Positions 19,648 to 60,411 of a DNA stretch of 64,000 nt are shown here, in pieces (within the stretch, counting starts at the first letter, position 1; each line of letters starts with the position of its first letter). Below the pieces are notes generated by a model that was not told where the DNA came from, did no database searches, and saw nothing but the letters and a program-made list of their open reading frames with translations. This stretch comes from Polytrichum commune (Eukaryota > Streptophyta > Polytrichopsida > Polytrichales > Polytrichaceae). The stretch covers positions 34,487,554 through 34,551,553 of the forward strand of contig OX485803.1 of the NCBI GenBank assembly GCA_950295325.1. The letters run 5' to 3'. The position numbers were made by a program, and so were the translations under genes.

Positions 19648-22600
19648 TCAAGATGGGTATGTGGAGGAATGTGCTGGTAAGTGGTATTTTCCTTCACCTT
19701 GCTCCAGCGCCTCCAGTTGGCCCAAGAGGGACAAATCTGGGGTTGATGCCGAGAGGAACTCAGGGCCTCCCGGGAAATCGTTATAGCTACTGAAGCTCCC
19801 ATCTGAGACGCCACCATTACTTAGGCTGGTGCCCATCGAGAAGGGCAAAGAGGATGAGAAGTCCCCACTGCCAACTTTGTTGTGGTTATAACACTGTGCC
19901 GTTTCAATGTACCCCAATCCTCCAGCATTATTACCACCTAACTCCTCACCCATGCGTAAACTGCTCATTGACATGGCAGTCATCATGTTGCTGCCGGCAT
20001 TGTTGTTATGGTTGCCCAGCATGGGCTTCGTCTCATCTTGCCCTCCCAAGCTTTTGAAGAGCGAGAGATCCTCATTGTTTTTCAGCAACACGGCCAGATT
20101 GTTGGCAGCTCCTCTTTCCCCCCGCTGCCTGCCAGCATCATACTGTGCCTTCATTAGCCGGTCGAGCTCACTGGAATCCATTCTCTGTAACCCCAGGGAT
20201 ACCATCGGTGGAGTTCCTTGGGCTTGGGTTGTGGCAACGTGCAATGGATTTGCCAGCAGTCCCCCTTGACCGTTTCCAGCTTGCTGTTTTTGTTGCAAGC
20301 TTTGAAGCTGCACAAGGGTGTTCAGTGTTGTGGAATCAATCTGGCCACCACCTCCTCCCCCAAGACCTGTCAAGGGCATCGCAGGATTTGCCCGGAGGTT
20401 CACCCCTTTGTTGCTGGAGGACGCAGCTGGACGGCCACCTGGTTGAATCTGCATGATTCCTCCAAATTTCCCACCCTCTGATGCCTGAAATGAGGCAACA
20501 GGGTAAGGCTGCGGCGTAACCCCAATCAGACGCTTCAAGTAGAGCCGGTATTTCTGAAAGGGAAACATATCACATCCTTGATGAGATTCAAGATAACAAA
20601 TATGAAGCAACCTGAAGGCCTGAGTGAAGAATGCTGAGAAACTCACAACTCAAAACAGGACAGCATAGGACAGAGGAATACAAAAGGACATTGGGCAATG
20701 TCCCTTTTTTCACTCAGCAAGCATTCGTCTGGTCAACAGACAGCTATACTAAACATCCGATATAGTGTAGCCCATACCATTCATTATCAACCCACACCAT
20801 TTTCTTGCAATCGCTGGATGGTAACTAAAGAGTGTCATATGGCATTTGGTACTACATGACAAGTCATGAAGACGACTCCTATTAACATTAGACAGGGTAA
20901 GGCTGCCATGTAACTGCAATCAGACACTTCAAGTGGAGCTGGTGTTTCTGACAGGGAGCATATCAGCTGCTTGATCGGATTCAAGATAGCACACATGAAG
21001 CAACATGAAGGCCAGAGTGAAGAATGCTAAGAGACTGGACATTAGGCAACTCAAAACTCAAAACAGGAAAAGATTGGACAGAACAACACAGAAGGACATC
21101 AGGCAATGTTCCTTATTACACTCCTTGATCTGATCAACAGACAATTACACTAAAGAACTGATTTAGTGTGGCCCGCACTATTATCATCAACCCACACTAA
21201 TTGTCTTGCAGAACTGTGGTAACTAAAGGGGTGTTGTATGACACTTGGTGCTACATGACAAGTCGTGAAGACCACTCTCATTAACAAGACAAGACCAATT
21301 TTAATACCACACTAAATCAGATGTAGTATACTGATATTGGTGATAGTCATCTAACCCTTCCAGGGCAATAACTGTCTTCTGCCACTGAGTGGCTCTTAGA
21401 GTACATAGCTCGTCCAAAACCCATTTTCCTTATGAAGTGCAGAGCACTTTTTGAGAGAGATATGAGGACACAATTACATACTATTCTCGTTTTGATGATG
21501 CTAGTTCCTGTCAAAGCGTTTGTCTTTTTTTCAAATATCTATCTATAAATCTGCATACATTATGCATTTGTGACATCTACCCCTACAATTGCATTGAGCT
21601 ATTCGCAAGAACAGTCCAGAGGAAGGCAAGGGCATTGATATCAAGTAGCCTTTCATCAAATCAAGCTGATGTGAAAGCACGTGAAAGCATGGTCACAGCA
21701 AAGTGGAATCTGTGAAAGCATCACTGAGCACCCAAGGCCACAAGACTGACTCAAATCTAGACTAATAACACTTCTTCGAGTAACAAAGCTACAAGGTAGT
21801 CAGTGATGGCCTAAGATAAGTAACCAGTTTAGGGTTGAGTTGGTACAAACCTGTAGGTGGCTGGCCACATTTTCCCGCGTGAGACCTTGTACATTCATAA
21901 TGTCAAGTATCCTCCTTGGCACAGCCCCTACATACCAAAAAGCGATTCATAAGATTGCTGGTGTCGGCTATGTGATGCTACACATTCTAGTTTCACAATG
22001 CATGTTCCAACATTTCTTACTTAGACAGTCTTGGTTTATCAATTGGTTCTGAAGACAACTACACTTCTAACTTCTAAAATAGACAAATATGAGGATGGTA
22101 GCTCAAATGCTCTGATGAGACCACATGGTACAAAGGACAACCTTCTAAACAGACTCCAATTACACTACCATCCTCCGACCTAATGAATGACCTTGGATCA
22201 ATATGCTTTGTCTCAAAGATAAGAATGACTAAACAAGTCTTCGTCCACTGATAATGACTACCTTTCTCAGATAGACCCCTGGTTTCTAGTACCAAAAATA
22301 AGGAAAGTCTTCCATAATACCTTAGATTCCCCTCATTCTTCACCCTTCTGAGTTTAGGTTGATAAGTGATGGAATACAAGTGTTAAATTACTGACAAGTT
22401 CCCATGGTGCACACCCTGTTCCCTTCAATTTTTCTTGCCTGGCTAAAAAGAACCCTACTTAGCAGGGCCAGCCAAGTAAGAAAAAGGATGCTCTAGAGAG
22501 GAGGATTATTATAACTTACTGTCAACTCCAAGCTGATGCACAGCGTTAACAAATTGTTGGTGTAGCTCCACAGACCAGACAACCCGAGCTTTCTTCAGGT

Positions 22601-37000: not shown

Positions 37001-37069
37001 ACTTGAAATATCTTCAATAATGCACGAGCCAAGATGCCGGCTCCACCGGTGAAAAGGCCTTGGCATTGA
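34016..37069. other. Intergenic DNA, no gene recognised
   Basis: AT-rich with poly-C runs near 34078 and 36797. A GC-richer patch at 36.82-37.02 kb (CCAGCGGGGTGACGTCCCGGG) has a short open frame but no recognisable family. Confidence 0.45.
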
Positions 37070-37970
37070 GGGCCACTTTACACCTAGAGGCCGGGCCAAT
37101 TCGGTGTGGAAGAGGCTCAAAATCCTCACTTGTGAGTGGCCCAAAGGCTGAAATCGGCCCCAACCCCTGTACACCTTGAGGCCAGGCCAATTTGGTGGTG
37201 TGGATTTTTTAATCAAAAAATGCATGGTATGACACGGCCTGAGCTCGTTGAATCGGGTGCACCCAAAATGGAAGGCCAATTCTTGGTCTCGGGACCAATG
37301 TCAAATTTCAATAAATGAATTATTTAAAAAAACAAAATATGATTTTTTTTAGCGAACCATGTCCATTGGATTCAGTCGAAATATGAACGGCTCTATGCTA
37401 GATTTATTGAATCGGCCTAGCTTCTTGGCCCTAGGGCCTTTACACGTGGAAAATTTGGCCCCCGTTATAATCTCATTATGATTTGTAGTTGAGGCCGGTC
37501 CAATTCCCCTTGAGGCCGATTGCATGAAATTTCAGCCCTTTTTGGGTTGGAGGCCGGTCTCAACTACACATTATAATCAAATTATAATGGGGGTTGATTT
37601 TCTCATATGTAAAGGTCTTAGGGCCAAGAAGCTAAGTTGGTTCAATAAATCTAGCATAATCCAATGGATCTAGCATAGTCATTCATATTTCCACATAATC
37701 CAATGGATATGGTTCGTTGAAAAAATCATATTTTAATTGAATTTTCTTAATATACTAAAATATGACATTGGCCCCAAGGCCAAGATTTAGCCTTCCATTT
37801 TGGGAGCACCCAATTCAACGAGCTCGGGGCGTGTCAGACCATGCATTCCTTTATTACACAATTCACACCACCAAGTTGGGGCCGATTTCAACCTTTCGGC
37901 CAATCACAAGTGAGGATTTCAAGCCTCTTACACAATGAATTGGCCCCGCGCTCTAGGTGTTAAGTGGCCC
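37070..37970. mobile_element. Long foldback element (arms ~440 bp)
   Basis: The left end GGGCCACTTTACACCTAGAG and the right end, in inverse GGGCCACTTAACACCTAGAG, begin arms that match almost to the centre near 37.52 kb. Blocks include AATCCTCACTTGTGA, TGAAATCGGCCCCAAC and CCCAAAATGGAAGGC. The right flank is TAA (37971-37973), the left flank TGA (37067-37069), compatible with a worn 3-bp PIF/Harbinger duplication. There is almost no spacer and no coding capacity. Confidence 0.8.
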
Positions 37971-37973
37971 TAA

Positions 37974-43735: not shown

Positions 43736-43830
43736 CCACCACTTGCAACTGGCCAGGACGACACTTGTATGTGAGCGTAGAGCGGAGAGCGGAGATTTGG
43801 AGAGCGGAGAGCGTAGAGGAAATAAAAATA
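43736..43830 (+). repeat. Left terminal inverted repeat of the large element
   Basis: Contains tandem GAGCGTAGAGCGGAGAGCGG-type steps, with GAGAGCGGAGAGCGTAGAGG repeated just inside. A 20-base core TATGTGAGCGTAGAGCGGAG is exactly mirrored at the right end. Confidence 0.85.
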
Positions 43831-44223
43831 GTAAACTTGTTAGACTAAAATTAGGATATTCCAAAATAGCCAAGAATATACCAAGAATATTCCAGAATTT
43901 GACAATAATAGTAAAAAAATTGGACCTATTTCCGTGGGATGTATAGGTCATAAAATAAAATAAAAACCCTGAATTTGAAATGGTCTCATTAAGTTTGGAA
44001 ACCGTGAGGTGGTTGAATTATTAAAACCAATGATGACTACAAGAAAAATCAATGAAAATGGATTTTTTGAGATTGGTATAATTGAAGAATGAGTCAATCA
44101 ATATACAAAGGAATCAAAATAATAAACTTGCTTGGTTTTTATTCATCACTTTTCTCTTTGTCTTATATGTGAGTCTATTCTATAGCTTGGACTTTAGCAA
44201 TTATCGTTTGTGGCCGAATAGAT

Positions 44224-44230
44224 TATAAAT
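44224..44230 (+). promoter_or_regulatory. TATA box upstream of the 155-aa gene
   Basis: TATAAAT lies 42 bp before the ATG at 44272. That spacing allows a leader of only about 15 nt if used in the usual way. A second candidate, TGTATATACAG, is at about 44253. Confidence 0.35.
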
Positions 44231-44271
44231 TGGACTCATACCCAACATAATTGTATATACAGTTGCACACA

Positions 44272-44739
44272 ATGGGAGATGAGAGAGACATGTTTGCTGG
44301 ATTAGGATGGGAGAAGGAAATTAGAAGTCTAGGAGATCCTCATATTCCATTTAATCCATCGCCGGAATTTGAGTTTGCTGCTGGAAATCAAAGTAGTGAT
44401 GACTACGAGCTGACTCCATTTTCGCAGTCTACACAAGCATGGAGGTGGAAGGTGCAGGAGGAGCAAAAACAATATGAGAAAAAGGAAAAAAGGCAGGAAG
44501 ATGTGCCGGAGAAGGATGTTGATTTAGATGAAGACAAATCGAACGAAACGGAGGAGGAGGTGAAGGTGGAAGGGGAATCTTCGAAGTCTCTTTCATTTCG
44601 CGAACGGATGAGAGGAATGACGCCGCATCATCTTCCGCTGAAGGATCGAAAGAGATATAAGACAATTTCTTATATGGATTTGCTTCGACCGGGTCCACCT
44701 CCCTCGCAATCATCTAAGAAGTATGCAAAACGGAAATAG
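44272..44739 (+). CDS. Element-encoded 155-aa charged protein, function unknown
   Basis: A single-exon frame starts at ATG 44272 (MGDERDMFAGLGWEKE); an upstream in-frame TTG is not used as a start. The N-terminal third is mixed, with FNPSPEFEF and aromatic residues. Residues about 58-105 are a Lys/Glu-rich, probably helical or disordered segment (EEQKQYEKKEKRQED; NETEEEVKVEGESS). The C-terminal part has FRERMRGMTPHHLPLKDRKR, SYMDLLRPGPPP and a basic tail KKYAKRK that could be a nuclear signal. I recognise no family. It sits just inside the left end and runs tail-to-tail with the transposase, 160 bp apart. AATAAA at 44784 can serve as its poly(A) signal. Possible roles are a transposition helper or small DNA-binding partner (inference only). 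Confidence 0.6.
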   Translation: MGDERDMFAGLGWEKEIRSLGDPHIPFNPSPEFEFAAGNQSSDDYELTPFSQSTQAWRWKVQEEQKQYEKKEKRQEDVPEKDVDLDEDKSNETEEEVKVEGESSKSLSFRERMRGMTPHHLPLKDRKRYKTISYMDLLRPGPPPSQSSKKYAKRK

Positions 44740-44810
44740 AGTTGATAGACATAGGAAGCATTGTAATACAAAATTTTGAAGCAAATAAAAATAATCATTG
44801 AGATTATACC

Positions 44811-44816
44811 TTTATT
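44811..44816 (-). terminator. Poly(A) signal for the transposase gene
   Basis: TTTATT on the plus strand reads AATAAA on the minus strand, 85 bp past the transposase stop codon. The opposing 155-aa gene has its own AATAAA at 44784-44789, so the two transcripts probably overlap at their tails. Confidence 0.5.
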
Positions 44817-44900
44817 ATATCAATCAATTATTGCTTCACAAGAGGTCCAGAAATGGACACATATATCATAGCCCAAAGTACTGCTAGGCTGAGATAAATC

Positions 44901-47900
44901 CTAAGAAGTAGACTTTGTCAAAAGACCCCCTTCGAGGATGAGTTTGACTTCGTTGAAGCTAAATGTCGGGGCGTGAATGAACAAATTCACTTCCGCATCC
45001 AAATTAGAAACCTTGATGAAAATGTAATACAAATGCTTACAATTCAAATAAGAATTTCGTTTGCGGCTGAACTTGGAAATCATATCCAAGAAAAATGCGC
45101 AGTTGCACTCTGGAAGAGAACTGACTGTCACTTGGTAGATCGGTGGTTGGGGTTCTAATTTGGACTGCAGTGTGATAATGCAACCAAATCCCGGTTGAGG
45201 GATCATAGTTAACTTCATAACGGTACCATGCATAGCTTCAGCAGAGGCCACCATCTGCCTCTGCTTTGCCGAAGGTGCGCTACTGGATCGCCGAACAAGC
45301 TTGGACAATCTTGTCGGAGGGATCATGTCGGGGTTTTCTGGAACACGGATTCCAGACATATCCAGCGGGGGAGCAGAGTTGGTGAAGAGTTGAGTCGGTG
45401 TGATGCGCTCCTTTGGTGGGAGTTGAAAACCTGCGTTCTCAAGGGCGAAGATATCCGAGCGGGTGAGGTTGGTACCAATCTTCACGGGCCAGATTGGGGG
45501 AATAGGAGGCTTCTGGTCATGAGCAGAGAACGGCATGACCCATTTCCGACGAGGGCCCTTCACGCAACGCTCAATGTCGTCGGGGCAAAAGACAAAGTCC
45601 GTGCGCTTCATAGATTGGAGTTTGTAATGATGCCACATACCGGTGTAGGTCGGCGCAGGGACGCTCTTATTATTAGTGACGATTCTTGCGGTGCACTTCT
45701 TCTTCGTGCCCGCATGATTAGCCCAACAAGACTTCCCAGACGTATAGGGTATGCGGGCAATATGCCAAAGAGAGACATCTACTTTGGTTTCTTGCACGGC
45801 AGTGACACGCTGGAAACCAAGTCCTGCAGGTGAAGGCACTTGAACCTCTTGTACAGAGGGGGAAGACTCCTCAATGATAGTGGGTAGTGTTTCTGGTTGA
45901 GATCGAGTGACACGCTTACCGGGGGGAGGGCGAGAGAAGTTCACGGTATCGGGGCGGTGGGTCTCGCCATCATCACCAATTGGAGTGTCTGATCTTCGCT
46001 TCTGCGATCCAAACACCTCGGCGCCCTCAAGGTGTGGATCGCGAGTGCAAAATTCTTCCCCACCGGACATGTCAAGCAAGACCTTCTGCAACACTGTGGG
46101 GTCGCCAGTACGCTGAGCTCGACGTTGAGCACCCCTGAGCTTTAGTTCTTCTTTGCTTGGACCATCTCCGCCAATTCCACCTTTAAGGAACTGGTAGTAT
46201 GCAACAACTTGTAAGAAGGCGCGAATGTAGTCGTCAACCGTAGCCACGTATAGATCTCCACCCTTGTTGCCGGAGGCTTGAAGCCATTTGTTGTGGACGG
46301 ACTCCGCAAGATTGCACGACGGCATCTCGGCCAATTGGTCTTGGGTTAAAACCTTTTCCTGATTGGAGAAATCAAGTATTAATATAAATGTACAGAGAGA
46401 GGAAATCGAATCCAAGAAAAACCAATAATGAATTATGAAGGAGATGTACCAGTTCCATGAAACCACCCCATTGAAGGTAGCGGAAGTGCCAAAAAGCAAG
46501 CCAGAGCTGAAGATGCTTGAGACCGTCCTCACTTGTACAATTCGATGACGCCCACCAAGCCTTGATAGCTAGGTACCTAGTCTCAGCCTCTTCCATAGAT
46601 GACGCATTTCGATATTGAAGGCAAAGATGTCTATGTTGGTCTTGTAACTCATGCTTTATATACGATTTCGTATGTTTTTCGAGCGATTGTTTCCAATGGA
46701 AAAAACAAGTGCGCTCACGACCCTCCATTGGAACTTTGGGATCCCCCGAACCATATACAATGCGAACAGCGTTCCAATTGGCTTGGGCACTGTCCGCCAT
46801 GAAGCCTATAAAGTTTGGATGTGGGATACCGTGTCGGGCCATGACGTGGTTGAGGTTCTGCCAGAAGAGAACTTGGGCATCCTTATCCTCCGATTGGAAA
46901 TCACAACATGAAATGGTCATGACCCGTTGATAAGTCCCATCGTACACATGAGCGGCCATGGTGGTCCACCCTTTGACCCGCTTCACGTGATCGGACATCA
47001 TCCACGCGTTCTCCAGGTCCCCACCCGGTTGCATCCGACGAACCAAATCCACTCCACTTCCAGGACCAACCTCCGACATCTTGAAGACGAACACCTTGTC
47101 TGTATCGTCACCTTGTCCTGGGAATTGGTTCCGTTGGACGTAGGCCCAATTGCTAACGCCTCGGAGCTTTGCGATGCCATCCATAACACCAAACCTCCGC
47201 AAATATTTGAAAGAGGTAACCTTAGAGCGAAGGTTTGGGGAATTCAACTCTCTACAGCTCTCAAAAACAGGTTCAAGCTCTTTTAAAGAGAAGAGACGGT
47301 GTGTGTCATTATCGCCAGAAAGGAGAAACTCACCAACAATGTCCTTGCTAGCTTCAAGGACGATCTTGCTGTGGGTGGCTTGAGGCGTACGTTCAACGTG
47401 CTCCTCAAGAAGTGCATTGATACGCTTCCGACTGTCTCTGCAGTCTCCAACCTTCACTGGATGTTGATGAGAACCGAGATGAATGCAGGCTCTTTGGGAT
47501 GACTCCTTCCCATGGACGTAGAAGATTTTGGCCTCGCATAGTGCAATGCATTTGGGAGGCTCTTTACAGATCCTGCAGACAAGAGTAGATCCGGATGGCA
47601 CAATGCCAGAGAGACGGAAAGGATCTTTAGTGAAACCTTCAAATTCTGTGTCATTGACCTTAGAGGTACGATGGGCGCGTTGAAGGTAATCACAACTCGG
47701 GTTTTGGCATTGGAGATGGCCAACACAGGTAGAGGAACGAAATGCAAGGCCAACGTCGTTTGTAATGTTGGTGGTTTGAGTCTTAGTCCAAACATGGCCA
47801 TCATATTGCTTGTCCATGCCGTCCAACGACTTGGCCCTGGTTTGAGATGAAGAGACTTCTGCTGCAGGGAGGACAAATAACTGGGTGCCATCGAAACGAG

Positions 47901-48573
47901 GGGGAAGGTGATTAACTTCTTGGATTTTGATTTTATCGTAATCTATTTTCTTGAGGACGTTCTTACTACCGGGCATAGAGCCAAGACGACGAAGACATTG
48001 AACAATAGTTTGAGGAGGTTTAGACGTAGGGACCGAAGGAGTTGAAGGGACAGAGCTAGATGGAGAAGGCGTTATGTAGGATGCAAAGGGAAACAAATGA
48101 GGGGAATCATGGACAGCAACCTTATACACTGGTACATCTTCACTCGAAGAATCAGACAAGTCTATAACGTTGTCTACACCAGGCTCGGTCTTGACGCTTA
48201 TTACGGGGGGTGTGCTAAAGGCAACAGTGGATGATCGAAGAGGAGGAAGGATTTCTGTTGACACTTCCATCTGAGAATCTGGCCAGCCACAAACCCTATA
48301 CTTTCCCGCGCCAAGCTCCCACACTACATTGCCATTGTCAGTTATCTTGGAGGTCTCATGGAAGGTATGAACGAGCAATCCAGTATCAGGATGGTAGATC
48401 TCACGCTCTACCCATATTGTACTAGCTTTCAAAGAGAACCTAATGCTAAGATGAAGCTCCGAGACAACAACAATACCTTGTGCACCAATGGGGAATATAA
48501 TAGGGACCCCGATGCCATGTGAACGAAGTTCGGCCATCTCAGAGACGGGAGGAAGAATTGAGGTGGAAGCCAT
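44901..48573 (-). CDS. Mutator-like transposase with SWIM zinc finger, 1,193 aa, two exons
   Basis: Exons 46450-48573 and 44901-46358 join at a GT-AG intron in phase 0 (FMEL then EKVLTQD). ATG 48573 begins MASTSILPPVSEMAEL; the frame is open upstream, but this is the first ATG. Residues about 283-378 are a Cys/His cluster (CVGHLQCQNPSC; CRICKEPPKC; HLGSHQHP) in the place where Mutator proteins carry a WRKY/GCM1-type finger. The DDE-like core has D545 in YDGTYQRVM and D594 in GFMADSAQANWNAV, then C623/H626 in RTCFFHW; a third acidic residue is likely near 661-664 (EEAE). A SWIM finger C1126-x-C1128 ... C1148-x-H1150 closes the protein. V127-K-T-E130 fits a SUMO site and V136-IDLSDSSSED a SUMO-interaction motif. 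Residues 1-100 form an extra, possibly beta-rich domain. No internal stop is seen, so it may be active. Confidence 0.85.
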
Positions 48574-48892
48574 GAAGGCAGAGAAAGCAAACGTGAAGGA
48601 ACAAAGATGCAAAGATGCATAGAGAAGGAGAATGGTGATGACGATGAAGTTATAAACAAATACGCATGAATATCAGGAAGGAGACAAAACTGTCAGGCAT
48701 CCTAAAAAAAGATACCCCTAATTACAAAGATGGTTGTCAGATAGTAAAACGCGCCTCCCATCGGGAGGTATTGCAATTATATACTGAGAAGAATGCGATT
48801 GCTCACTTTCTTTCCAATGTGTGAGTTTGATGTGGTGAGGTTGTGGAAAGGAAATAGAGCGAATAGGTCTGAATTGCGGGAGGGTTGAACAC
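48574..48892. promoter_or_regulatory. Divergent promoter region
   Basis: This 319-bp gap separates the transposase ATG (minus) from the ATG of the basic-protein exons (plus). TATATA at 48778-48783 lies 110 bp before the plus-strand ATG. A weaker TTTATAAC on the minus strand lies near 48650. A small stem CCTCCC/GGGAGG is at 48754-48769. Sharing the region could co-express the two genes. Confidence 0.5.
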
Positions 48893-49841
48893 ATGAAGGA
48901 AATAGGCAATTCACAACCTCCGACAACGGAACCATCTAAGAAAAAGAAGAGGAGGCGATCGTCTACACATTACACTGATAAGAAGAGAAAGACAGTGAGG
49001 ACACAAAAGTCACAGGCAAGGAAAGCGCCAATTGAGGGCCGTGGGACGCCCGAGGATTTGAGCCAAAGCATAAAGGACCTGCGGAAACCTTCGTGGAGGT
49101 TAGACTGTGGGATTCGGCCTTTTCATTTATCACCGATTGTAGAAGAGGCGGACGGAAGTAAAGCGCAACCAATGGCAGAAGTGGAGGAGTTGGGAAACGA
49201 CAGCATCCAAGAGGACTCACGCGAAGAGACAAACTCTACAAGTGTCGTACGTATTCTTCGGGTTCTCCATATATTCAGTTGTTTGAGCACATAATGAAAA
49301 TGGTAGAACATATTCAACTGTGAAACAACTTTTCTTTTAGATATTATGGTTTGTCATCATTGTTATAAACATTGTTTTATCTTAAATATAGAAAGAGGGG
49401 GGGAGTGGAGATAGTGGAAATATCTATGAAGAAGACAACAAGGAGGTAGCACAACAAATTGAGAAGGCGTTAGAAGAGCGAGAACCGATGTCGGGACAAC
49501 CAACGATTCAAGCAAGAGAAAAAATGAAGGCGTCCAAGAGGAAAGCGGCAAAGGAAGATCTGAAATCAAATTTGTTGGGAGGCCGCGAAAGAGCTGAAGG
49601 AGGAGACCCATGCGCAGAAACCCTAAGTGTGGATGTTGTGACCCCTGCTTCAAGATTTCTGCGAAGCAAGGCGGGCGGAACACAACAAACATCAAGGCGA
49701 GGGCGTGGCCGCGGGAGAGGAATGGCGCAAGTAAACCTCGGAGATTCGAGAAGCACTCCAATATCGCCGACAGAGGACGGGACCTCGGAAGATAGTGGCG
49801 CCAATATAGGGGCTTCAGTGGAGGGCATACTCCAAATTCTG
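48893..49841 (+). CDS. Basic nuclear-type protein, two exons; possible N-terminus of the ParB-like gene
   Basis: Exons 48893-49246 and 49392-49841 join by GT-AG in phase 0, giving 268 residues before a further donor (CTG then GTAAGG at 49842). The N-terminus has a strong nuclear signal (SKKKKRRRSS; DKKRKTVRTQK). The middle is acidic and Ser/Thr-rich, followed by REKMKASKRKAAKED and an Arg/Gly patch (RRGRGRGRG), which suit nucleic-acid binding. The next consensus acceptor in the same phase is at 55188/55189, after the whole palindrome array; joining there would add these 268 residues to the ParB/methyltransferase-like protein, for about 1,383 aa. If not spliced, the frame stops at 49911-49913. 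Both readings are open. Confidence 0.55.
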
Positions 49842-51769
49842 GTAAGGTGTCGGGATCTCGGCCAAGCTATGTTCGCCAACGTTTTTGCTTTCTATCACCT
49901 TGATTTCTCATAGTATTTGGAATATCAGCTTGACTTGCTTTCGGCCTTGTCTTGATTTGGGTTTAGGAACATGTTAGGAAAGGTATGTTTGTGCTTGAAA
50001 AATCAAAAGGTTATGTGCACATCATGTTGCTCTCGGCCTTGTCTCGTTTTGTGTAGTGCACAAGAACGAGCTAGGGCAAGAGGCCTCGGATCCGAGGCCT
50101 CATATTTGTGTAAGTTTGAGTATGTGAGAGGTAGGGTTTTGAGGGAGGTGAGGTTCTTGATTTCTCAACCTAATAGAATGTCAACTTTCTTGCTTTCTTG
50201 ATTCCTTGCTCTCGGCCATTTCTTCTATTGTGTAGTGCATAAGTGGGAGCCATAGGAAGAGGCCTCGGATCCGAGGCCTCTTATTTGTGGGTAGGTTTGT
50301 GCTTGAAAAATCAAAATGTTATGTGCACATCAATTGCTCTCGCCCTTGTCTTGTTTTGTGTAGTGCATAAGAAGGAGCTAGGGGAAGAGGCCTCGGATCC
50401 GAGGCCTCTTATTTGTGTAAGTTTGAGTATGTGAGAGGTAGGGTTTTGAGAGAGGTGAGGTTCTTGATTTCTCAAACTAATGGAATGTCAACTTTCTTGC
50501 TTTCTTGATTCCTTGCTCTTGGCCATTTCTTCTATTGTGTAGTGCATAAGTGGGAGCCATAGGAAGAGGCCTCGGATCCGAGGCCTCTTATTTGTGGGTA
50601 GGTTTGTGCTTGAAAAATCAAAATGTTATGTGCACATCAATTGCTCTCGGCCTTGTCTTGTTTTGTGTAGTGCATAAGAAGGAGCTAGGGGAAGAGGCCT
50701 CGGATCCGAGGCCTCTTATTTGTGTAAGTTTGAGTATGTGAGAGGTAGGGTTTTGAGAGAGGTGAGGTTCTTGATTTCTCAAACTAATGGAATGTCAACT
50801 TTCTTGCTTTCTTGATTCCTTGCTCTCGGCCATTTCTTCTATTGTGTAGTGCATAAGTGGGAGCCATAGGAAGAGGCCTCGGATCCGAGGCCTCTTATTT
50901 GTGGGTAGGTTTGTGCTTGAAAAATCAAAATGTTTTGTCCACATCGATTGCTCTCGGCCTTGTCTCGTTTTGTGTAGTGCATAAGAAGGAGCTAGGGGAA
51001 GAGGCCTCGGATCCGAGGCCTCTCGGCCGAGGCCACTTGAGGTTTTTTGATTCAAAGTATAACTTGTATGAATGAGGCACTTTGCTTGTTTTTGAGGATG
51101 TAAACTAGTTTGTGAATGAGGCCTCGGATCCGAGGCCTCTTTTATGTGTTCCAAAACAAGTGTAGAGAAGAGGCACTTTGGTTGGTTTTGAGTATGTAAA
51201 CTAGTTTGTGAATGAGGCCTCGGATCCGAGGCCTCTTTTATGTGTTCCAAAACAAGTGTACGGAAGAGGCACTTTGGTTGGTTTTGAGTATGTAAACTAG
51301 TTTGTGTGTAAGGCCTCGGATCCGAGGCCTCTCGGCCGAGGCCACTTGAGGTTTTTTGATTCAAAGTATAACTTGTATGAATGAGGCACTTTGCTTGTTT
51401 TTGAGGATGTAAACTAGTTTGTGAATGAGGCCTCGGATCCGAGGCCTCTTTTATGTGTTCCAAAACATGTGTACGGATGAGGCACTTTGGTTTGTTTTGA
51501 GTATGTAAACTAGTTTGTGAATGAGGCCTCGGATCCGAGGCCTCTCTTATGTGTTCCAAAACAAGTGTACGGAAGAGGCACTTTGGTTGGTTTTGAGTAT
51601 GTAAACTAGTTTGTGTGTAAGGCCTCGGATCCGAGGCCTCTCGGCCGAGGCCACTTGAGGTTTTTTGATTCAACGTATAGCTTGTATGAATGAGGCACTT
51701 TGCTTGTTTTTGAGTATGTAAACTAGTTTGAAAATGAGGCCTCGGATCCGAGGCCTCCTTTTAGTGCCC

Positions 51770-51965
51770 TCGATCAGCAGTCCCCAGGGAGTGGCTCCCG
51801 GGACTCCGAATGTTCAAACAGGCATAACTTCCTTGATTTTTGCCCAAATGGGGCAAGTGAGGTGTCCATCGGCATCTACATTTCACGTAGATGACGATAG
51901 AGTGGTTGATTGTTAGATTCGGAGACCACACGTGGAAGATATGGAGGTCTGAAGCTGCCGGGGGG
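51770..51965 (+). repeat. Inserted dispersed-repeat fragment in the array, copy 1
   Basis: It begins CAGCAGTCCCCAGGGAGTGG, contains AAACAGGCATAACTTCCTTG, GGGGCAAGTGAGG and CCATCGGCATCTAC, and ends in a G run. It matches 3165-3350 of the window and copy 2 at 52252-52455. Confidence 0.8.
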
Positions 51966-52251
51966 GGGAAATGTGTTTTGTTAAGTGCATATGTAGAAGC
52001 TAGGAGAAGAGGCCTCGGATCCGAGGCCTCTTTTATGTGTTCCAAAACTAGTGTACGGATGAGGCACTATGGTTGGTTTGGAGTACGTAAATTACTTTGT
52101 GTGTGAGCCCTCGGATCCCAGGCCTCTCAGCCGAGGCCACTTGAGGTTTTTTGATTCAACGTATAGCTTGTATGAATGAGGCACTTTGCTTGTTTTTGAG
52201 TATGTACACTAGTTTGAAAATGAGGCCTCGGATCCGAGGCCTCCTTTTAGT

Positions 52252-52455
52252 GCCCTCGATCAGCAGTCCCCTGGGAGTGGCTCCCGGGACTGCGAATGTT
52301 TAAACAGGCATAACTTCCTTGATTTTTGCCCAAATGGGGCAAGTGAGGTGTCCATCGGCATCTACATTTCACGTAGATGACGATAGAGTGGTTGATTGTT
52401 AGATTTGGAGACCACACGTGGAAGATATGGAGGTCTGAAGCTGCGGGGGGGGGGG
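52252..52455 (+). repeat. Inserted dispersed-repeat fragment in the array, copy 2
   Basis: Almost identical to copy 1 and set about 487 bp downstream together with its flanking palindromes, so insertion came first and the array segment was duplicated afterwards. Confidence 0.8.
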
Positions 52456-53884
52456 AAATGTGTTTTGTTAAGTGCATAAGTAGGAGCTTTGGGAAGAGGC
52501 CTCGGATCCGAGGCCTCTTTTTTGTGTCAAGGTTTGTGCTTGAAAAATCAAAATGTTAGGTTCATTTTTGAATTCTCTCGGCCATTTTCTGTAGTATGTA
52601 TTTCATAAGGAGGGGCATTCGGAAGAGGCCTCGGATCCGAGGCCTCATTTTTGTGTCAAGGTATGTGCTTGAAAAATGAAAATCTTATGTTCATTTTTGA
52701 ATGCTCTTGGCCTTCTTGTTTTGGGTAGTGCATAAGTAGGTACTTTGTGAAGAGGCCTCGGATCCGAGGCCTCATTTTTGTGTCAAGGTATGTGCTTGAA
52801 AAATGAAAATCTTATGTTCATTTTTGAATGCTCTTGGCCTTCTTGTTTTGGGTAGTGCATAAGTAGGTACTTTGTGAAGAGGCCTCGGATCCGAGGCCTC
52901 ATTTTTGTGTCAAGGTATGTGCTTGAAAAATGAAAATCTCATGTTCATTTTTGAATGCTCTTGGCCTTCTTGTTTTGGGTAGTGAATAAGTATGTGTTTT
53001 GGGAAGAGGCCTCGGATCCGAGGCCTCATGTTTGAGTCAATTTTATTTAAGAAAAATCAAAATGTTATGTTCGTGTAAGATTACTCTCGGCCTTCTTGTT
53101 TTGGGTACTACATGAGTAGGAGGTTTGTGAAGAGGCCTCGGATCCGAGGCCTCTTGTTTGTGTAAGTTTGAGTATGTGAGAGGTAGGGTTTTGAGAGAGG
53201 TGAGGTTCTTGATTTCTCAAACTAATGGAATGTCAACTTTCTTGCTTTCTTGATTCCTTGCTATCGGCCATTTCTTCTATTGTGTAGTGCATAAGTGGGA
53301 GCCATAGGAAGAGGCCTCGGATCCGAGGCCTCTTATTTGTGGGTAGGTTTGTGCTTGAAAAATCAAAATGTTATGTGCACATCAATTGCTCTCGGCCTTG
53401 TCTTGTTTTGTGTAGTGCATAAGAAGCAGCTAGGGGAAGAGGCCTCGGATCCGAGGCCTCATATTTGTGTAAGTTTGAGTATGTGAGAGGTAGGGTTTTG
53501 AGAGAGGCGAGGTTCTTGATTTCTCAAACTAATGGAATGTCAACTTTCTTGCTTTCTTGATTCCTTGCTATCGGCCATTTCTTCTATTGTGTAGTGCATA
53601 AGTGGGAGCCATAGGAAGAGGCCTCGGATCCGAGGCCTCTTATTTGTGGGTAGGTTTGTGCTTGAAAAATCAAAATGTTATGTGCACATCAATTGCTCTC
53701 GGTCTTGTCTTGTTTTCTGTAGTGCATAAGAACCAGCTAGGGGAAGAGGCCTCGGATCCGAAGCCTCCTATTTGTGTAAGTTTGAGTATGTGAAAGGTAG
53801 GGTTTTGAGAGAGGTGAGGTTCTTGATTTCTCAAACTAATAGAATGTGAACTTTCCTGCTTTTTTGGTTCCTTGCTCTCTGCCT

Positions 53885-54345
53885 TGTGCCCCACGGGTGA
53901 ACACCCGTGGGCCATGTAACAGGTAACTTGGGTAGGATTTAGCATCATCACGGGGAGATGTCTCCATGTCAAATATTTTTAAAAATTATGATTTTTTTTC
54001 TCTATATTCATAACTATTGATTATATCTTTTGTATATTTTTTTGAAATTTTTTGTCATCTTCATTTTTTCTAGTAATTGTTTTAGTTGAATTCTGCGTCA
54101 TTCTAGGTAGAAATGGTATGTTTTCTAGAAAAATATGGTCATCAAATTTGGTCATGATATTTTACTCCGTAATAGATATCATGTATATCTACGTCCCAAA
54201 AAAACTTGAGAAAATTTTGACCCATTTTGGTGATGCAACTTGGCAATGGAGTGACCTCCCCTGGAACATCATCAAATGTGAACCTCACGGGTGAACACCC
54301 GTGAGCCATGTAACAAGTAAATTGGTTAGGTTTTAAAATCATCAA
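53885..54345. repeat. Insert in the array bounded by direct repeats with an 18-bp hairpin
   Basis: CACGGGTGAACACCCGTG near 53891 and 54287 starts two ~60-bp direct repeats that continue GCCATGTAACA, GTAA, TTGG and ATCATCA. Between them is AT-rich, palindrome-free DNA (about 335 bp). The 8-bp stem CACGGGTG/CACCCGTG with a 2-bp loop is distinct from the main palindrome. It could be a small insertion or a tandem duplication. Confidence 0.75.
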
Positions 54346-55191
54346 GGAGGGGCATTTGGAAGAGGCCTCGGATCCGAGGCCTCATTTTTGAGTCAGGTTG
54401 TGTGCTTGAAAAATGAAAATGTTAGGTTCATTTTTTAATTCTCTCGGCCATTTTCTGTAGTATGTATTTCATAAGGAGGGGCATTCGGAAGAGGCCTCGG
54501 ATCCGAGGCCTCATTTTTGTGTCAAGGTATGTGCTTGAAAAGTTAAAATGTTATGTTCATTTTTGAATGCGCTTGGCCCTCTTGTTTTGGGTAGTGCATA
54601 AGTAGGTACTTTGTGAAGAGGCCTCGGATCCGAGGCCTCATTTTTGTGTCAAGGTATGTGCTTGAAAAATGAAAATCTTATGTTCATTTTCGAATCCTTT
54701 CGGCCTTCTTGTTTTGGGAAGTGAATAAGTATGTGTTTTGGGAAGAGGCCTCGGATCCGAGGCCTCATGTTTGTGTCAATTTTATGCTAGAAAAATCAAA
54801 ATGTTATGTTCGTGTAAGATTGCTCTCGGCCTTCTTGTTTTGGGTACTACATGAGTAGGAGGTTTGTGAAGAGGCCTCGGATCCGAGGCCTCATTTTGGA
54901 GACAATGTATGTGCTTGAAAAGTCAAACTGCTATGTTCACATAAGATTTCTCTCGGCCTTTTTCTTTTGGGTAGTGCATAAGGAGGAGGTAGGAAAAGAG
55001 GCCTCGGATCCGAGGCCTCTCATTCGTAGGTAGGTTAGTGCTAGAGTTGAGCACTTGACTTAGCATTCGGCCATTTCCATTTGTAGTTTGCTCTCGGCCT
55101 TGTATTGTTTTTGTGAGGATTTGTTTCTTTATAGTTACGAAGTTATTGACTTTTCTTTGTGAAATTCTCATTTTCTCCATGTTCTTAGGAT

Positions 55192-58100
55192 ATGGACTCT
55201 TCACAGGTTGCGCAATCGCAACCCCAATCTGGAGAGGATGTTGTTCTTGCGGCCCCCGCGGTTGAAGTTGAAGCTGTGCAGGTTGAGAGTCTCAATTCGC
55301 AGGGCCCATTACAAGTAGAGGTGAGTTGGATAGTTGTTGAATAATTTGTTAAGCAAGTTTTTTGAGTTCTAGCTTTCTAAGCATGGTTTTATTGTTTGTG
55401 TTTTTGTTAGGCTCTCGCAATGAGCGAAGATGCCGTTCAAGCAGTTGCCGACACGGATCCCGTGGTGTGTGAGCTTGAGCTTCGGAAATCACAAAAGGAG
55501 GACTCCATTGGTGTTATCCAACGCCTTCGGATTAAGCCAACATGTAAGTCCCGCTTATCCATTCCTTTATGCCGCTTGAGAGCCCTCCCTCTCGTCCGTC
55601 CTATCAGTGAGGTTGAGGTGCAGCGCTTGGAATGTGAATTTGTAATGGGATACCGAGAGGGTGATCGGGTTCTTTACGTGTCTTCTTTCAACGACGTTCC
55701 CGTGGACCTCCCCATTCCCCCTGGCATTATGGCCTCTTGGAGCCCTCTCTGGCAAGAGGCCTCCGCAGAATTTGACGCCAAGCTCAAGGAGGATCCGGAT
55801 CTTGCACATTTCGCCGGGAAGATGTTCTTCGTCTGGGAAGGCAATCATCGTCTCACCGCTTGGTGGAGACACATCAATAACCACCACGCCGATGACAAGA
55901 GTTGGCATATCTTGGTGGATTGCATTGTTGTTGACCCTAGAAGATACACCGGTATATTCTTCAATGCCATGAGCGACATTAATTGGTAAGCTCATTCATT
56001 TTTTTCATTCATTTTTCATTTTTGTTTCAATTCTCTTCCATTCTTTTCAGCTCACGTTCCTCACATATTTTTTCTCAGGTCAACCGAGCATGATTATGTC
56101 AAGGCAAACATTCCGGCCAAGCTCCTTCGAATCCGCACTTTTGGGAGGTTAGAGTTGTCCACCTTCAAGGATCTTATATCACCATCTGACTACAAAGCAT
56201 GCGAGAAGATAAAGGAGAGTCGCCCAACTTGGTACACCTTGACCGCGGATGTGTTCGTTAAGTTTCTTTACAAGGTATGGTTTTATGCATTCAATCATTT
56301 AGAGCTTCCAACATAGATAATTTCCATACCGATTATATGAACTCACAAGGTCATTTCTTGCAGAGAGACATTTCGGCTCAAGCAGACCTTGCAGTGAGGC
56401 ATTACCGTGAGACCACACCCGTTGCGGAGAGGTCGGCCACTGAGATTTGGAATGTTATGACCAAGGCCCAGGAGAGGACAATCAAAAGTATTCGGGCCCG
56501 TTCTTTTGAGAAATACATATCCGTTGCACACCCTGACAATGGAGAGGATTTCTTTCATGAGGTACTCTTTTGAAGTCAAATCACTCTTGAACGCAATTCA
56601 TCCAAATCACTCTTCAACTCTATTACTCTTTTGAACTCAAATCATTTTTATTTTATGCACAGATTGACCGTCATTTTAATGAGTTCTCTTCGACGGACAT
56701 GACAATTGAAAAATTGCAAAAAATTGTCACATGCCCGGTCGAAGCTTCGTTCAAAGCTAAGTGGCTTCACTGGTGGAACGCCCCCCTTCGTGAAAGGTTA
56801 GATAACAAGTTCCCCGTCGACAAGCCTATGAGGGAGAGGGCTTTGGACGACTGGCTACACAAGGCGTCCTTCTGGGCTCAAATAAATCCATTCCTCGGCC
56901 TTCTTCATTTTCATTTTCCTCTATTCCATTTATCTCATATCCAATCATCTCCTTCTCTGCAGTTGGAGAAAGAAGTCGCGGTTGAAATTGAGACCTTAGA
57001 GGAGAGCCTCTCCGTCGACATTGATTGGGACGCATCAGAAACTATCTTGCGCCCTCGTGAGTACGTTGATCATTGGCGGATTGTCCTTTGGGACAAGGCC
57101 TTCAAGCCTTATCTCGGCGATAAGCCTGACATCGCATTTGCCAAAGGTGATAATCTCTTGGAGTTCGAGGAGGGGGCTCTCGCTATCAAGCGTGTAGCCT
57201 ATCGGTAATACATCTATCCTCTACTTTGCACCTCTCCTTAATGTCATTTCTTGCTCGTTTTGTTGGTTTTCTTACATTCTTGTTTTGTCATGTAGGTATA
57301 TCATGAGAAAATTGGTTGTGAAGAATGCATTGGCCTCATCTTCCTTGCCGGACTACCTCTCGGACTGGGTGAATATTTTTTCTAGCCTCTGCGTGTATAC
57401 GACCGCGCAAACAAACAAGTTTTCCGAATTGCACTTGCAGGGTGGTGGATGGTACTTGGATTGTGCTGCAGGATTTGTCCCCGGGGAAGAGAAGGCTTTG
57501 TTTGCTAGCCTTGTGGGTAGTGCTCTGGATAATAACATTGTTACCTTGGAGGACCCTGACATCGTTGAGCTTCCCCCTCCTCCTCCTAAGGCACCAAGGA
57601 GAAAGGGCAGAGCAAAGAAGACCGCCACTCAAGCATCTTCCCAAATTCTCACTCGGTCTGCTTCTAAGACCCCGGTTGAGCCACCCACCCTTCCACACAG
57701 TCCATCTATCGCTCCCTCCGTTGCTCCCTCTCTTGCCCCTTCTGTTACTCCATCCGCATTTCATCCCCAATCTCTTGCCACTCCATCTCATAGTGGCACT
57801 TCTCTCCTCTCTTTGCCTTGCAAGAGGAAGGCCGCTCTCTTGGATACCAGTGCCACCTCTTCGGATGCCACTAACACGCTTACCCTCATCGAAAATGTGG
57901 ACATGGTTCAACTAATGTTGGATTCCGAGGTTGCCGGAGGTCCCCTCCCCGCATATACCCGCATCCAAGAGTTCATTGCCAAGGTTTGTATACTTGCCTT
58001 CGTCAATTCTCAATTTTTTTTCCTTTGCTTTGTTTATTTCTTTCCTTCTTGTTTTCTCATGAAGTTTCAATTGCAGGTTGGGGCAGGTCGTTCCCGTGTG

Positions 58101-59392
58101 AACACCTCGACTACAGCTCACAAGGGCCTCGATTTGCTCTTCGCCGACATTCCCGAAAATTTGCCGGTGCCGAACATCTCCACCGATGTTCCTGCTTGGA
58201 ACAAGCTCCATGAATCATACTATGAGTGTCTTTTTGCATTTGCGAAATCTAACCTCTATGATCATGGTGTCCTTGTTCTTGCCCATTGTGCGAGTGCCAG
58301 TGTTTCTAGGAGTATTTTCGATTGGGCACACACTTATGACTTCTACGTCGCGGAAGATTGGTTTGGAATGAATGATTTAGACCTCCAATCTCCCGTTGTT
58401 CCCTCTGGAGTGGTAAGCAAGTCTCCCTCTCTTCCCCTTCCGTATTGCTTATCATTTCAATTTCAATTCAATTTCAATTCCATTTCATTTCAATTCAATT
58501 TCATTTTCATTGTTGCAGACTCGGAAGTTCAACATCAAAGTTCTTGTTCGTGTTAACTCCGTTCTTAGAGTGCGGGAGGAGGCCATACAAGAGTATGGTT
58601 ACAACCTCCAACGAGATGGATGGTTGAATACCTTCACCGATGAGAAGAGCCAGACGATGCGCAGTGATGGGGTACCTTGGCGAGGTGCCCGTGAGAAGCA
58701 TCCTGTTTTTTTTTCCATCCTTCTCGCTACTCTCACCGACAAGAATGATGTTATTATGGACTGGCAGTGTGGTGTAGGTACGCCTTCTTTTTCAACTTCA
58801 TCCTTACTTTGAATTTTCCATTATTTTTCCTTGACTAGTTTTCATACTAACATTTTACCTCTCTTTGCTTTAGGTGGTTCGATTACAGCATGTCGCTCCC
58901 TTGAGCGGCATATTGTGGCCCTTGAGAGTGACCCCGTCATTTTCAATTCACTCCTACTCCCCATGCGCGATCCCCAGCCTGCGCGTATATCTCGCTCAGT
59001 TGCCGCACCGTCTACATCTATCTTTGATCCTCCTCAAAAGATGACCAAGAGGGCATTCGGATTTCTTTGTGCGTAAGTTTGCTTTCTATATTTTGCCATG
59101 TTTGCTTTGATTTCAAATTCTCATTTTCTAGTGTCATCATGTTTCTAATCCTTTTGCTTGGGTGTTTAGAGAGCCAGCGGAGGTCGCAGTCATTCGTCGA
59201 GACATGTTTTCAAGTCCTCCGAAGCCGTTTGAGCTTCCCCCGTATGCTAGTGCAATGGCGGATTGTTTTGCGAAGGCGGAGTCCCCATCTCCTCCTCGCG
59301 TTCGTCATTTCTCGCGTGGAACACGAAATCTTTTCTTGTTAGAAGCAAATGAGGGTGAGGAGAGTGATAGGGAATGTTCTCCAAGCCCTTAG
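55192..59392 (+). CDS. ParB-like / beta-class DNA-methyltransferase-like fusion protein, ~1,114 aa, ten exons
   Basis: Exons: 55192-55320, 55411-55985, 56079-56274, 56364-56561, 56663-57204, 57296-57983, 58077-58412, 58519-58777, 58874-59072, 59170-59392. All nine introns are GT-AG, 89-106 bp, and the phases agree. Residues about 90-240 look ParB/sulfiredoxin-like: IPLCRLRALPL, then VWEGNHRLTAWW with the GNHR box at 187-190. The C-terminal third follows beta-class N4/N6 methyltransferase order: LDLLFADIPENLP (motif IV position, D800-I-P-E instead of DPPY/F), GVLVLAH, then EKHPVFFSILLATL and DVIMDWQCGVGGS (motif I, 969-977) followed by ERHIVALESDP. The altered IV and I motifs make catalysis doubtful. 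A Pro/Ser-rich linker (PPPPPKAPRRKGRAKK) lies in exon 6. A weak GC-AG intron may hide within exon 5 (56862-56961). The first ATG directly follows a splice acceptor, so the true N-terminus may lie upstream. Confidence 0.7.
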
Positions 59393-59447
59393 TTTATCAT
59401 TTTGGTTTTGGAGATTATAACTCCGTTTGTTGTTGTTATCCGGCTTT

Positions 59448-59453
59448 AATAAA
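59448..59453 (+). terminator. Poly(A) signal of the ParB/methyltransferase-like gene
   Basis: AATAAA lies 56 bp past the stop codon, in a T/G-rich 3' flank. Confidence 0.6.
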
Positions 59454-60335
59454 AGTTGTGTGTTGGTTTTATTTTTGATATCCGGCGCAAGTTTCATTCT
59501 TTCTTTCCATTATTTCATATTCATATGTCAACCCGCATTGCATTCTTTATTTTTTCTTCATCGTTCGGATCTCTTAACTTCTAGTCACAAAACAATCTAG
59601 CTCTCGGCTCTTAGTGTGAGATCTTAGTTATAGGGGGACCATACTTTCTATTAGTGTGGATGGTTTATTTTATGGTTGTGCACACTAATCACATTGGCCG
59701 TCTTCCAATCCCAATTGCTATATAGCAATTGGAAGTTTTGTTTGGCACGCGAACATAACCTCGTCAAACTTTTTAAATTGAAATTCATGTTGTTCTCAAA
59801 GAGCCGGCACGTCACCTCAAAAATTTCCAAGAGGATTCTAAGGTTGGACTTGGGGGATTTGTCTTTGAGGTCTTTGGCTAAGCTAAGGACTGAATTGGAA
59901 GGCTGTTATGGTGCGACGGAGTTTTATGGCATGTTCTTTGGATCATTTTACCCATATTGGACATGCCCGGCAGATAGGGTGTAGATGGCCCTAAACTAGA
60001 GTATATAGTTATTTTAACTAACTACCCATTTTTGTAAGTCTTGAGGTTGGCTACATTTTGTTGACCAATAAAATATTTTGTGTATGGTATTTTGATTTCA
60101 ATTTGGTGACGTCAGCCCTAATTTAATATGATACATTTGAAAACATATACTATAAGATGTTTGATAACAAATGCAATCTTCCACGCCTATAGGATCCGTT
60201 GGTTTCTCAAACAATTCTGGGTTATTATGTCCACGGGAATGGGGGTACCTTTCCAAATATAGAATTCAAACTATCTCTAATTCCACGGAAATAGGCACTG
60301 CTTCTCCTAAAATTACCCAACAAAATCTAAATTTT
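59454..60335. other. Right subterminal region of the large element
   Basis: No gene is recognised; a short open frame at 59676-59984 lacks family features. Towards the right end, TTCCACGGAAATAGG (about 60281) mirrors CCTATTTCCGTGG of the left end. Confidence 0.5.
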
Positions 60336-60411
60336 CCGCTCTCCAATCTCCGCTCTCCGCTCTACGCTCACATACTTGAGTTTCCCCAACTGGCCATTGC
60401 AACGTGGTGGG
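60336..60411 (-). repeat. Right terminal inverted repeat of the large element
   Basis: CTCCGCTCTACGCTCACATA and the outer GGCCATTGCAACGTGGTGG are the inverse of the left end. Confidence 0.85.

Follow-up and report, generated by a model that had tools for sequence, protein, structure and literature searches.

Why should a plant transposon carry, besides the enzyme that moves it, a gene for a protein with ParB-like and methyltransferase-like domains, and beside that gene a long run of near-identical palindromes? The question is posed by a 64,000-nucleotide stretch of the Polytrichum commune genome (assembly GCA_950295325.1, contig OX485803.1, positions 34,487,554 to 34,551,553), which we call the window throughout. 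It holds a multi-copy, recently amplified, autonomous Mutator-like element. The palindromes hold constant while their surroundings change, in an element that encodes a predicted ParB-fold protein, and so would most simply be that protein's binding site; what such binding might achieve is taken up below.

The element and its copies

43756 to 60386: whole element, 16,631 bp, delimited by terminal inverted repeats and a target site duplication
43746 to 43755: left target site duplication CAACTGGCCA, 10 bp, with an exact copy at 60387-60396
60387 to 60396: right target site duplication CAACTGGCCA, 10 bp, matching the left one exactly
43756 to 43797, plus strand: left terminal inverted repeat, 42 nt (11 imperfect and 31 exact)
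60345 to 60386, minus strand: right terminal inverted repeat, 42 nt
46450 to 48573, minus strand: transposase exon 1, with the N-terminal domain, a Cys/His-rich region and an RNase H-like core with D528 and D594
44901 to 46358, minus strand: transposase exon 2, with the proposed catalytic E727 and a SWIM zinc finger (C1126/C1128...C1148/H1150)
44272 to 44739, plus strand: small charged open reading frame of 155 residues (an open reading frame only)

The limits of the element follow from the 10-bp duplication, which brings the two ends into a common register (11 nt, then 31 exact; 43767-43797 against 60345-60375). The 9-mer AACTGGCCA occurs only twice in the window, both times in these duplications, and the 31-mer of the ends has no further occurrence there, the next best having 10-12 mismatches. 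Among 1,280 simulated sequences (order-1 Markov, 64 kb each, with the window's nearest-neighbour composition) none held an inverted repeat of at least 31 bp with arms 5-30 kb apart; the longest was 21. A preliminary description of the locus had placed mirror-image ends with an exact 20-base core around positions 43736-60411: the ends are real, their exact core is longer, and the span was 20-25 bp too wide on each side. It had also called the left flank a dispersed repeat seen again at 38.6 kb, a name the flank does not merit, since the match there is a single one of 37 bp at 92%. No empty site was found inside the window, where the joined flanks match only themselves, that 37-bp stretch, simple repeats and short chance matches.

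Mutator-like elements (MULEs) have target duplications of 8-11 bp (PMC6446971; here and below a citation covers those passages of a paper that bear on the point), a range that includes ours, and the 42-nt inverted repeats, short for plant MULEs, lie inside the range of that paper's table. The transposase, 1193 residues with DDE plus SWIM, is of the Mutator type, which often carries a SWIM or other zinc finger, and its predicted fold is closest to the ISCth4 transposase, as expected of such an element. Its frame is open across both exons in the window and in seven of the nine other copies that hold both, which bears out the earlier claim of an intact Mutator-like transposase. The Pfam Mutator/MULE transposase models give no match to it up to E 10, Transposase_mut matched one of 38 aligned transposase proteins (E 0.18), and a profile search of the PDB returned two unrelated matches only (E 0.17 and 0.86). 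By the Pfam comparisons, the transposase belongs to a diverged lineage.

How far has the element spread? A 101-bp probe of its left end (43736-43836), in which the predicted first base of the element is base 21, gave 364 candidates in the 407.8-Mb assembly. All 40 that were scored matched, 39 of them elsewhere than in the window and starting at query bases 15-24, so the genome holds at least 40 left ends. Twenty kilobases were fetched from each of the ten best-scoring of those 39 (c1 to c10), a choice that leans towards close relatives. A right end was found in six, at copy lengths of 14,989-19,379 bp, and their 10-bp duplications are perfect and all different in four, 9/10 in one, and absent in c5 (1/10 bases); with the window, five of seven delimited copies have a perfect one. 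The other four, c1, c7, c8 and c10, show no right end within 20 kb: c7 and c8 extend beyond what was fetched (c8 is first broken by a long interruption, and the end of its 20 kb falls within its array), and similarity to the element is lost after about 7 kb in c1 and 5.5 kb in c10. In aligned blocks the ten share 93-99.8% identity with the window copy, which argues for a recent spread of the family, at least of its best-scoring copies. A further member, with blocks 94-98% identical, is one of three loci that we picked from the genome's palindrome list, the other two being L031, a diverged relative, and L032, which is described below. Early stops interrupt the transposase in c4 and c10 and the ParB gene in c9; the transposase is interrupted in c7, and ParB-gene exons are missing in c4, c5 and c6.

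The preliminary description had proposed looking for several copies with the same genes, shared ends and target duplications, and had conceded that ends found only once would count against it; the outcome favours that description, for the copies exist (39 other left ends, ten of them fetched) and the ends are far from single.

That the inverted ends are separate small elements with a host locus between them is practically out of the question. Different duplications around the whole unit (the five perfect ones and a sixth at 9/10), together with copies as alike as those above, rule it out, and nothing was found in its favour.

A palindrome array and the gene that may span it

50080 to 55019, no strand: palindrome array, 33 copies of the 22-bp GAGGCCTCGGATCCGAGGCCTC at spacings of mostly 96-179 bp
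48893 to 49246, plus strand: proposed first exon (part of "gene 3"), residues 1-63 at 79% in L031
49392 to 49841, plus strand: proposed second exon (part of "gene 3"), ending in a phase-0 donor, CTG/GTAAGG
49842 to 55188, plus strand: proposed phase-0 intron, 5.35 kb, GT...TTAG, which holds the array; the frame continues across it
55189 to 55320, plus strand: exon 3
55411 to 55985, plus strand: exon 4, ParB/sulfiredoxin-fold domain (predicted) with the EGNHR motif
56079 to 56274, plus strand: exon 5
56364 to 56561, plus strand: exon 6
56663 to 56881, plus strand: exon 7
56882 to 56962, plus strand: 81-nt stretch, with GT...AG intron ends in 7/7 other copies compared, and with AT for the GT donor in the window copy
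56963 to 57204, plus strand: exon 8
57296 to 57983, plus strand: exon 9, Pro/Ser-rich linker
58077 to 58412, plus strand: exon 10, methyltransferase motif IV region, FADIPE for (D/N/S)PP(Y/F/W) (HMMER alignment with CcrM ADPPYNL)
58519 to 58777, plus strand: exon 11, first part of the SAM-binding motif I region (MDWQCGV)
58874 to 59072, plus strand: exon 12, remainder of the motif I region
59170 to 59392, plus strand: last exon

Are the palindromes kept alike for a reason? The roughly 5 kb of palindromes reported earlier is confirmed: 29 of the 33 copies are exact, three have one mismatch and one has two, and each is built on a palindrome centred on GATC. The genome holds 1,903 exact copies of it as against none of a reversed control. 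Among the 33 units of the window the 22-bp core differs by 1.4%, and the 20 bases on each side by 44.7%; among the 144 distinct units of the window and the ten fetched copies the figures are 3.3% and 45%. The window and the ten copies together give 340 sites (away from stretch ends), with 75 changes, in 10 of the 11 stretches. The copies c1 to c10 have 19, 31, 50, 55, 32, 35, 46, 12, 28 and 0 sites, where the counts for c1, c8 and c10 are those of incomplete copies or stretches; c10 is without an array, and in c1 as many as 11 of the 19 palindromes are changed. Eight copies, the window included, could be read through the array into both neighbouring gene parts, and these hold 28 to 55 sites; since the number varies among complete arrays, the array expands and contracts.

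A diverged relative tells a similar story. L031 is 68-79% identical to the window in the ParB/methyltransferase gene and 88-94% in the transposase, and the C-terminal 26 residues of the 155-aa reading frame (the part inside the fetched stretch) are 92% conserved there. Its array has 18 sites in units of 127-128 bp, two exact, 15 with one mismatch and one with two. The usual form begins GAGCCC..., and the inner 14-bp palindrome CCTCGGATCCGAGG is intact in 17 of the 18. The 17 spacers of L031 are no closer to the main-family copies than shuffled ones are (best E 0.94, against 0.24 for shuffled spacers). Taken together, these comparisons indicate that the palindrome is constrained, both across copies and in the diverged relative. 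L032 has only two palindrome sites, in DNA 69-84% like the main array, and on its minus strand (6033-7071) a distantly related methyltransferase-like gene whose motif IV exon shows 38% identity. No match to the ParB exon or to the transposase was found within the 10 kb fetched. With only two sites there, its methyltransferase relative need not belong to the array in question.

The array probably lies inside a 5.3-kb intron of the ParB/methyltransferase gene, and from the reading frames the two "gene 3" exons and the downstream exons may form one gene. Coding beyond the transposase, of which three units had been described, thus stands, although the units may be two: the 155-aa reading frame and one gene spanning the array. 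Where the window has an ATG at 55192, the diverged relative has TTC (as read by eye). The 81-nt stretch at 56882-56962 reads through in frame in the window copy, giving 27 residues; the frame stays open because the window lacks the TAA that other copies have there (in frame in c2, c3 and c9).

Within the array, an AT-rich piece of 0.5 kb (53885-54345) has at its borders 65-bp repeats that contain the palindrome-like CACGGGTGAACACCCGTG; it may be a nested insertion, or else a second type of unit.

The ParB/methyltransferase-like protein

By predicted fold, this second gene encodes a ParB/sulfiredoxin domain and a beta-class methyltransferase-like domain. Among 5.8 billion proteins the 1114-aa product as a whole has no match, probably owing to a length filter, since the source proteins are single exons; the ParB exon alone has 223. 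Members of the ParB/sulfiredoxin superfamily share a conserved GxxR-like motif in their nucleotide pocket. The modelled domain has the ParB/Srx fold, and its EGNHR, a GxxR-like motif, is shared by 55 of the 60 aligned rows; of the 120 relatives listed, 87 have it, and at least some of the other 33 are fragments or changed. One public contig size (674,632 bp) recurs for a transposase match and for a ParB match, a linkage that is suggestive only. The palindrome and the ParB profile had no match in prokaryote genomes; nor did either of them, the transposase or the transposase profile in viral contigs. The ParB profile found nothing in the PDB, and at gathering thresholds there was no Rfam match.

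The methyltransferase half is where the expected and the observed part company. The catalytic motif of beta-class enzymes is (D/N/S)PP(Y/F/W), its aromatic residue normally stacking on the flipped base. HMMER pairs both the motif IV and the motif I stretch with CcrM in the beta-class order, IV before I; the motif IV stretch scores just 1.5 bits by itself, so the match is carried mainly by motif I. Motif IV reads DIPE, not DPPY, in all six genes that we read (four full-length ones, in the window, c2, c3 and c9, and those of L031 and L032), down to 38% identity, and the aromatic base-stacking residue is accordingly gone. Across these alignments DIPE is a kept family trait. The multi-domain gene of the preliminary description is present, and the "DNA modification" attributed to it is unproven, DIPE standing where the catalytic DPPY should be.

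In codon comparisons the ParB gene gives pN/pS of 0.64 (c3) and 0.43 (c9), c2 being unscored because of a gap; for the transposase, nine comparisons range from 0 to 2.06.

A possible role, its rivals and its relatives

What might such a protein do at its array? ParB partition proteins have a helix-turn-helix domain that binds palindromic parS, a CTP switch and a partner, ParA; they bind palindromes as dimers. By analogy, the ParB/methyltransferase protein would attach, probably in dimeric form, to the 22-bp palindromes that cluster next to its own gene, in an array that is probably part of that gene's intron. It would perhaps load there and spread like a ParB clamp, and it could keep the element's chromatin open or unmethylated (anti-silencing) or mark the element as self. 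We infer both the binding and the anti-silencing outcome, and on balance favour a role in self-recognition or anti-silencing, exercised through the array. A narrower proposal, that a eukaryotic transposon has adopted a bacterial ParB-parS-like principle, with a ParB nucleotide switch fused to a methyltransferase-derived reader (the DIPE domain, which would have ceased to be a standard writer) loading at arrays, spreading and blocking silencing, is tentative. The ratio of observed to expected CpG, 0.64-0.81 in the four 4-kb bins of 44001-60000 against 0.36-0.60 in the other 12, fits both a recent arrival and an escape from methylation, and proves neither.

Several observations weigh against the role that we favour. 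Protein and palindrome are tied together by position and analogy only. No Pfam gathering match exists for the ParB or the methyltransferase domain (none at all up to E 1 for the 1114-aa protein, or up to E 10 for the gene-3 part), sequence E-values are weak, and the NCBIfam CcrM match has E 0.0026 and 16.7 bits against a cut-off of 830. The window ParB gene lacks one splice donor that 7/7 other copies keep, and the pN/pS values rest on few changes. When closely matched units are compared, the core changes at about half the flank rate (29/2200 against 198/8000), and taking such pairs itself tilts the count towards changes in the flanks. In 15 of the 18 L031 sites base 4 carries one and the same change, which means that the symmetry of the outer palindrome is not essential. 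In L031, too, no second "gene 3" exon was found, and 27 bp separate the array from the last match to the first exon; that locus does not bear out the intron layout.

Other explanations must account for the same facts. The protein might work as a DNA methyltransferase and place N6-methyladenine or N4-methylcytosine on the element, for example at the palindrome's central GATC, as a mark of self. The GATC itself, the beta-class order and the resemblance of the motif I region to CcrM and DpnA speak for such a writer, and the algal ParB-methyltransferase proteins have been proposed to bind and modify their own transposon (PMC12477816). We nevertheless judge it unlikely, given that an altered catalytic motif is common to all the genes read, from the window, c2, c3, c9 and L031 to the 38%-identical relative in L032, with the aromatic residue gone. 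Roughly as improbable is that the palindromes serve as another kind of cis element: a binding array for the transposase or a host factor, an intronic enhancer, or RNA hairpins in an intron. The probable intronic position would suit this, as would the folding of a 26-nt unit into an 11-bp stem closed by a GATC loop (z -4.6). However, none of the four variant sites in the window shows a compensating change (by eye), which argues that sequence and not just pairing is kept, and the ends of the element, the expected binding places of transposases, are each 5-6 kb from the array.

A neutral satellite, its palindrome kept alike by gene conversion or by breakage and expansion of units at the palindrome, would fit the varying number of sites (28 to 55 in the eight copies). 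Homogenization should hit spacers too, yet these differ by 45% and the core hardly at all, and in L031 an unrelated set of spacers carries the same core; we give this explanation very little credence.

Around the element lies plant DNA. Exons at 19648-22592 on the minus strand belong to a plant gene of the response-regulator-like (GARP/Myb) kind, which we take to be of the type-B family. At 8419-9580 a 1.16-kb near-perfect inverted repeat, about 89% identical to itself when reverse-complemented, lies between copies of the 9-bp direct repeat ATCAATACC; it is probably a foldback, non-autonomous element of the Mutator type. Another self-inverted repeat, of about 0.9 kb (73%), is found at 37069-37971 without a clear target duplication, and at 308-963 a 220-bp unit (93%) is repeated in tandem about three times.

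How much of this has been seen before? Sites of prokaryotic ParB proteins are palindromic. With ParB-parS and the prokaryotic ParB-methylase fusions (PMC5512222) our protein shares the ParB/Srx domain; one such fusion, a ParB-adenine methylase of Bacillus cereus, is cited there as having nicking activity. Unlike them, the gene here is eukaryotic, rich in introns and part of a transposon, and its motif IV is altered. A close counterpart is Sola1-1_Ec32 of the brown alga Ectocarpus, a giant DNA transposon of 21.5 kb in the Sola superfamily, whose accessory protein of 1104 residues joins a ParB-like to an N4C/N6A methyltransferase domain (PMC12477816). Both are giant transposons with a ParB-methyltransferase accessory of similar size, transcribed opposite to the transposase. 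Ours differs in its Mutator-like transposase, its plant host and its palindrome array beside the ParB exons; the passages on Sola1-1_Ec32 mention neither a target array nor DIPE. The same paper mentions ParB-methyltransferase transposon proteins for green and red algae too, and cites giant EnSpm elements of red algae, alike in being giant DNA transposons with accessory genes and different in transposase superfamily.

Pack-MULEs carry captured host fragments. They are named in PMC12477816 and are likewise Mutator-like with extra genes, whereas here a dedicated gene is common to the copies. VANDAL elements are another group of Mutator-like elements (PMC6446971). In VANDAL21 the protein VANC binds a short motif tandemly arrayed in introns and other non-coding parts (PMC5735166) and brings about a loss of DNA methylation along the entire element, and the motif arrays vary in copy number (PMC5735166; PMC10398659). 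VANC, an anti-silencing protein, is the best precedent for the role proposed here, and the layout is similar in kind: a Mutator-type transposase, an accessory protein and a variable array in non-coding DNA. VANC, however, has DUF1985 and DUF287, its 9-base motif (YAGTATTAY) is not palindromic, and the passages on it mention no ParB or methyltransferase domain (PMC5735166); conversely, neither our 1114-aa protein (up to E 1) nor the gene-3 part (up to E 10) matches DUF1985, the mark of VANDAL elements.

The architecture had been thought undescribed. That holds in part: a ParB-methyltransferase accessory is known from the brown-algal Sola element and motif arrays from VANDAL21, so that what is new here is the Mutator host, along with the matched array and the DIPE motif. 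Among the papers listed by searches of an open-licence library, which leaves out most subscription journals, none described a ParB-methyltransferase transposon of land plants or among Mutator-like elements.

In very few cases is it understood at the molecular level how transposons escape host silencing. This element may be a second, independent anti-silencing design, put together from prokaryote-type ParB and methyltransferase domains and a simple 22-bp target. With dozens of palindromes per element, and the exact copies across the genome, binding of the protein to the palindrome and any effect on methylation are directly testable. Were the proposal true, it would provide a ready sequence-addressed epigenome tool, and self-recognition of the element in this plant genome would draw on about 1,900 exact sites. 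In any case, ParB-methyltransferase transposon proteins now extend to Mutator-like elements of a plant, with a conserved DIPE variant of their motif IV.

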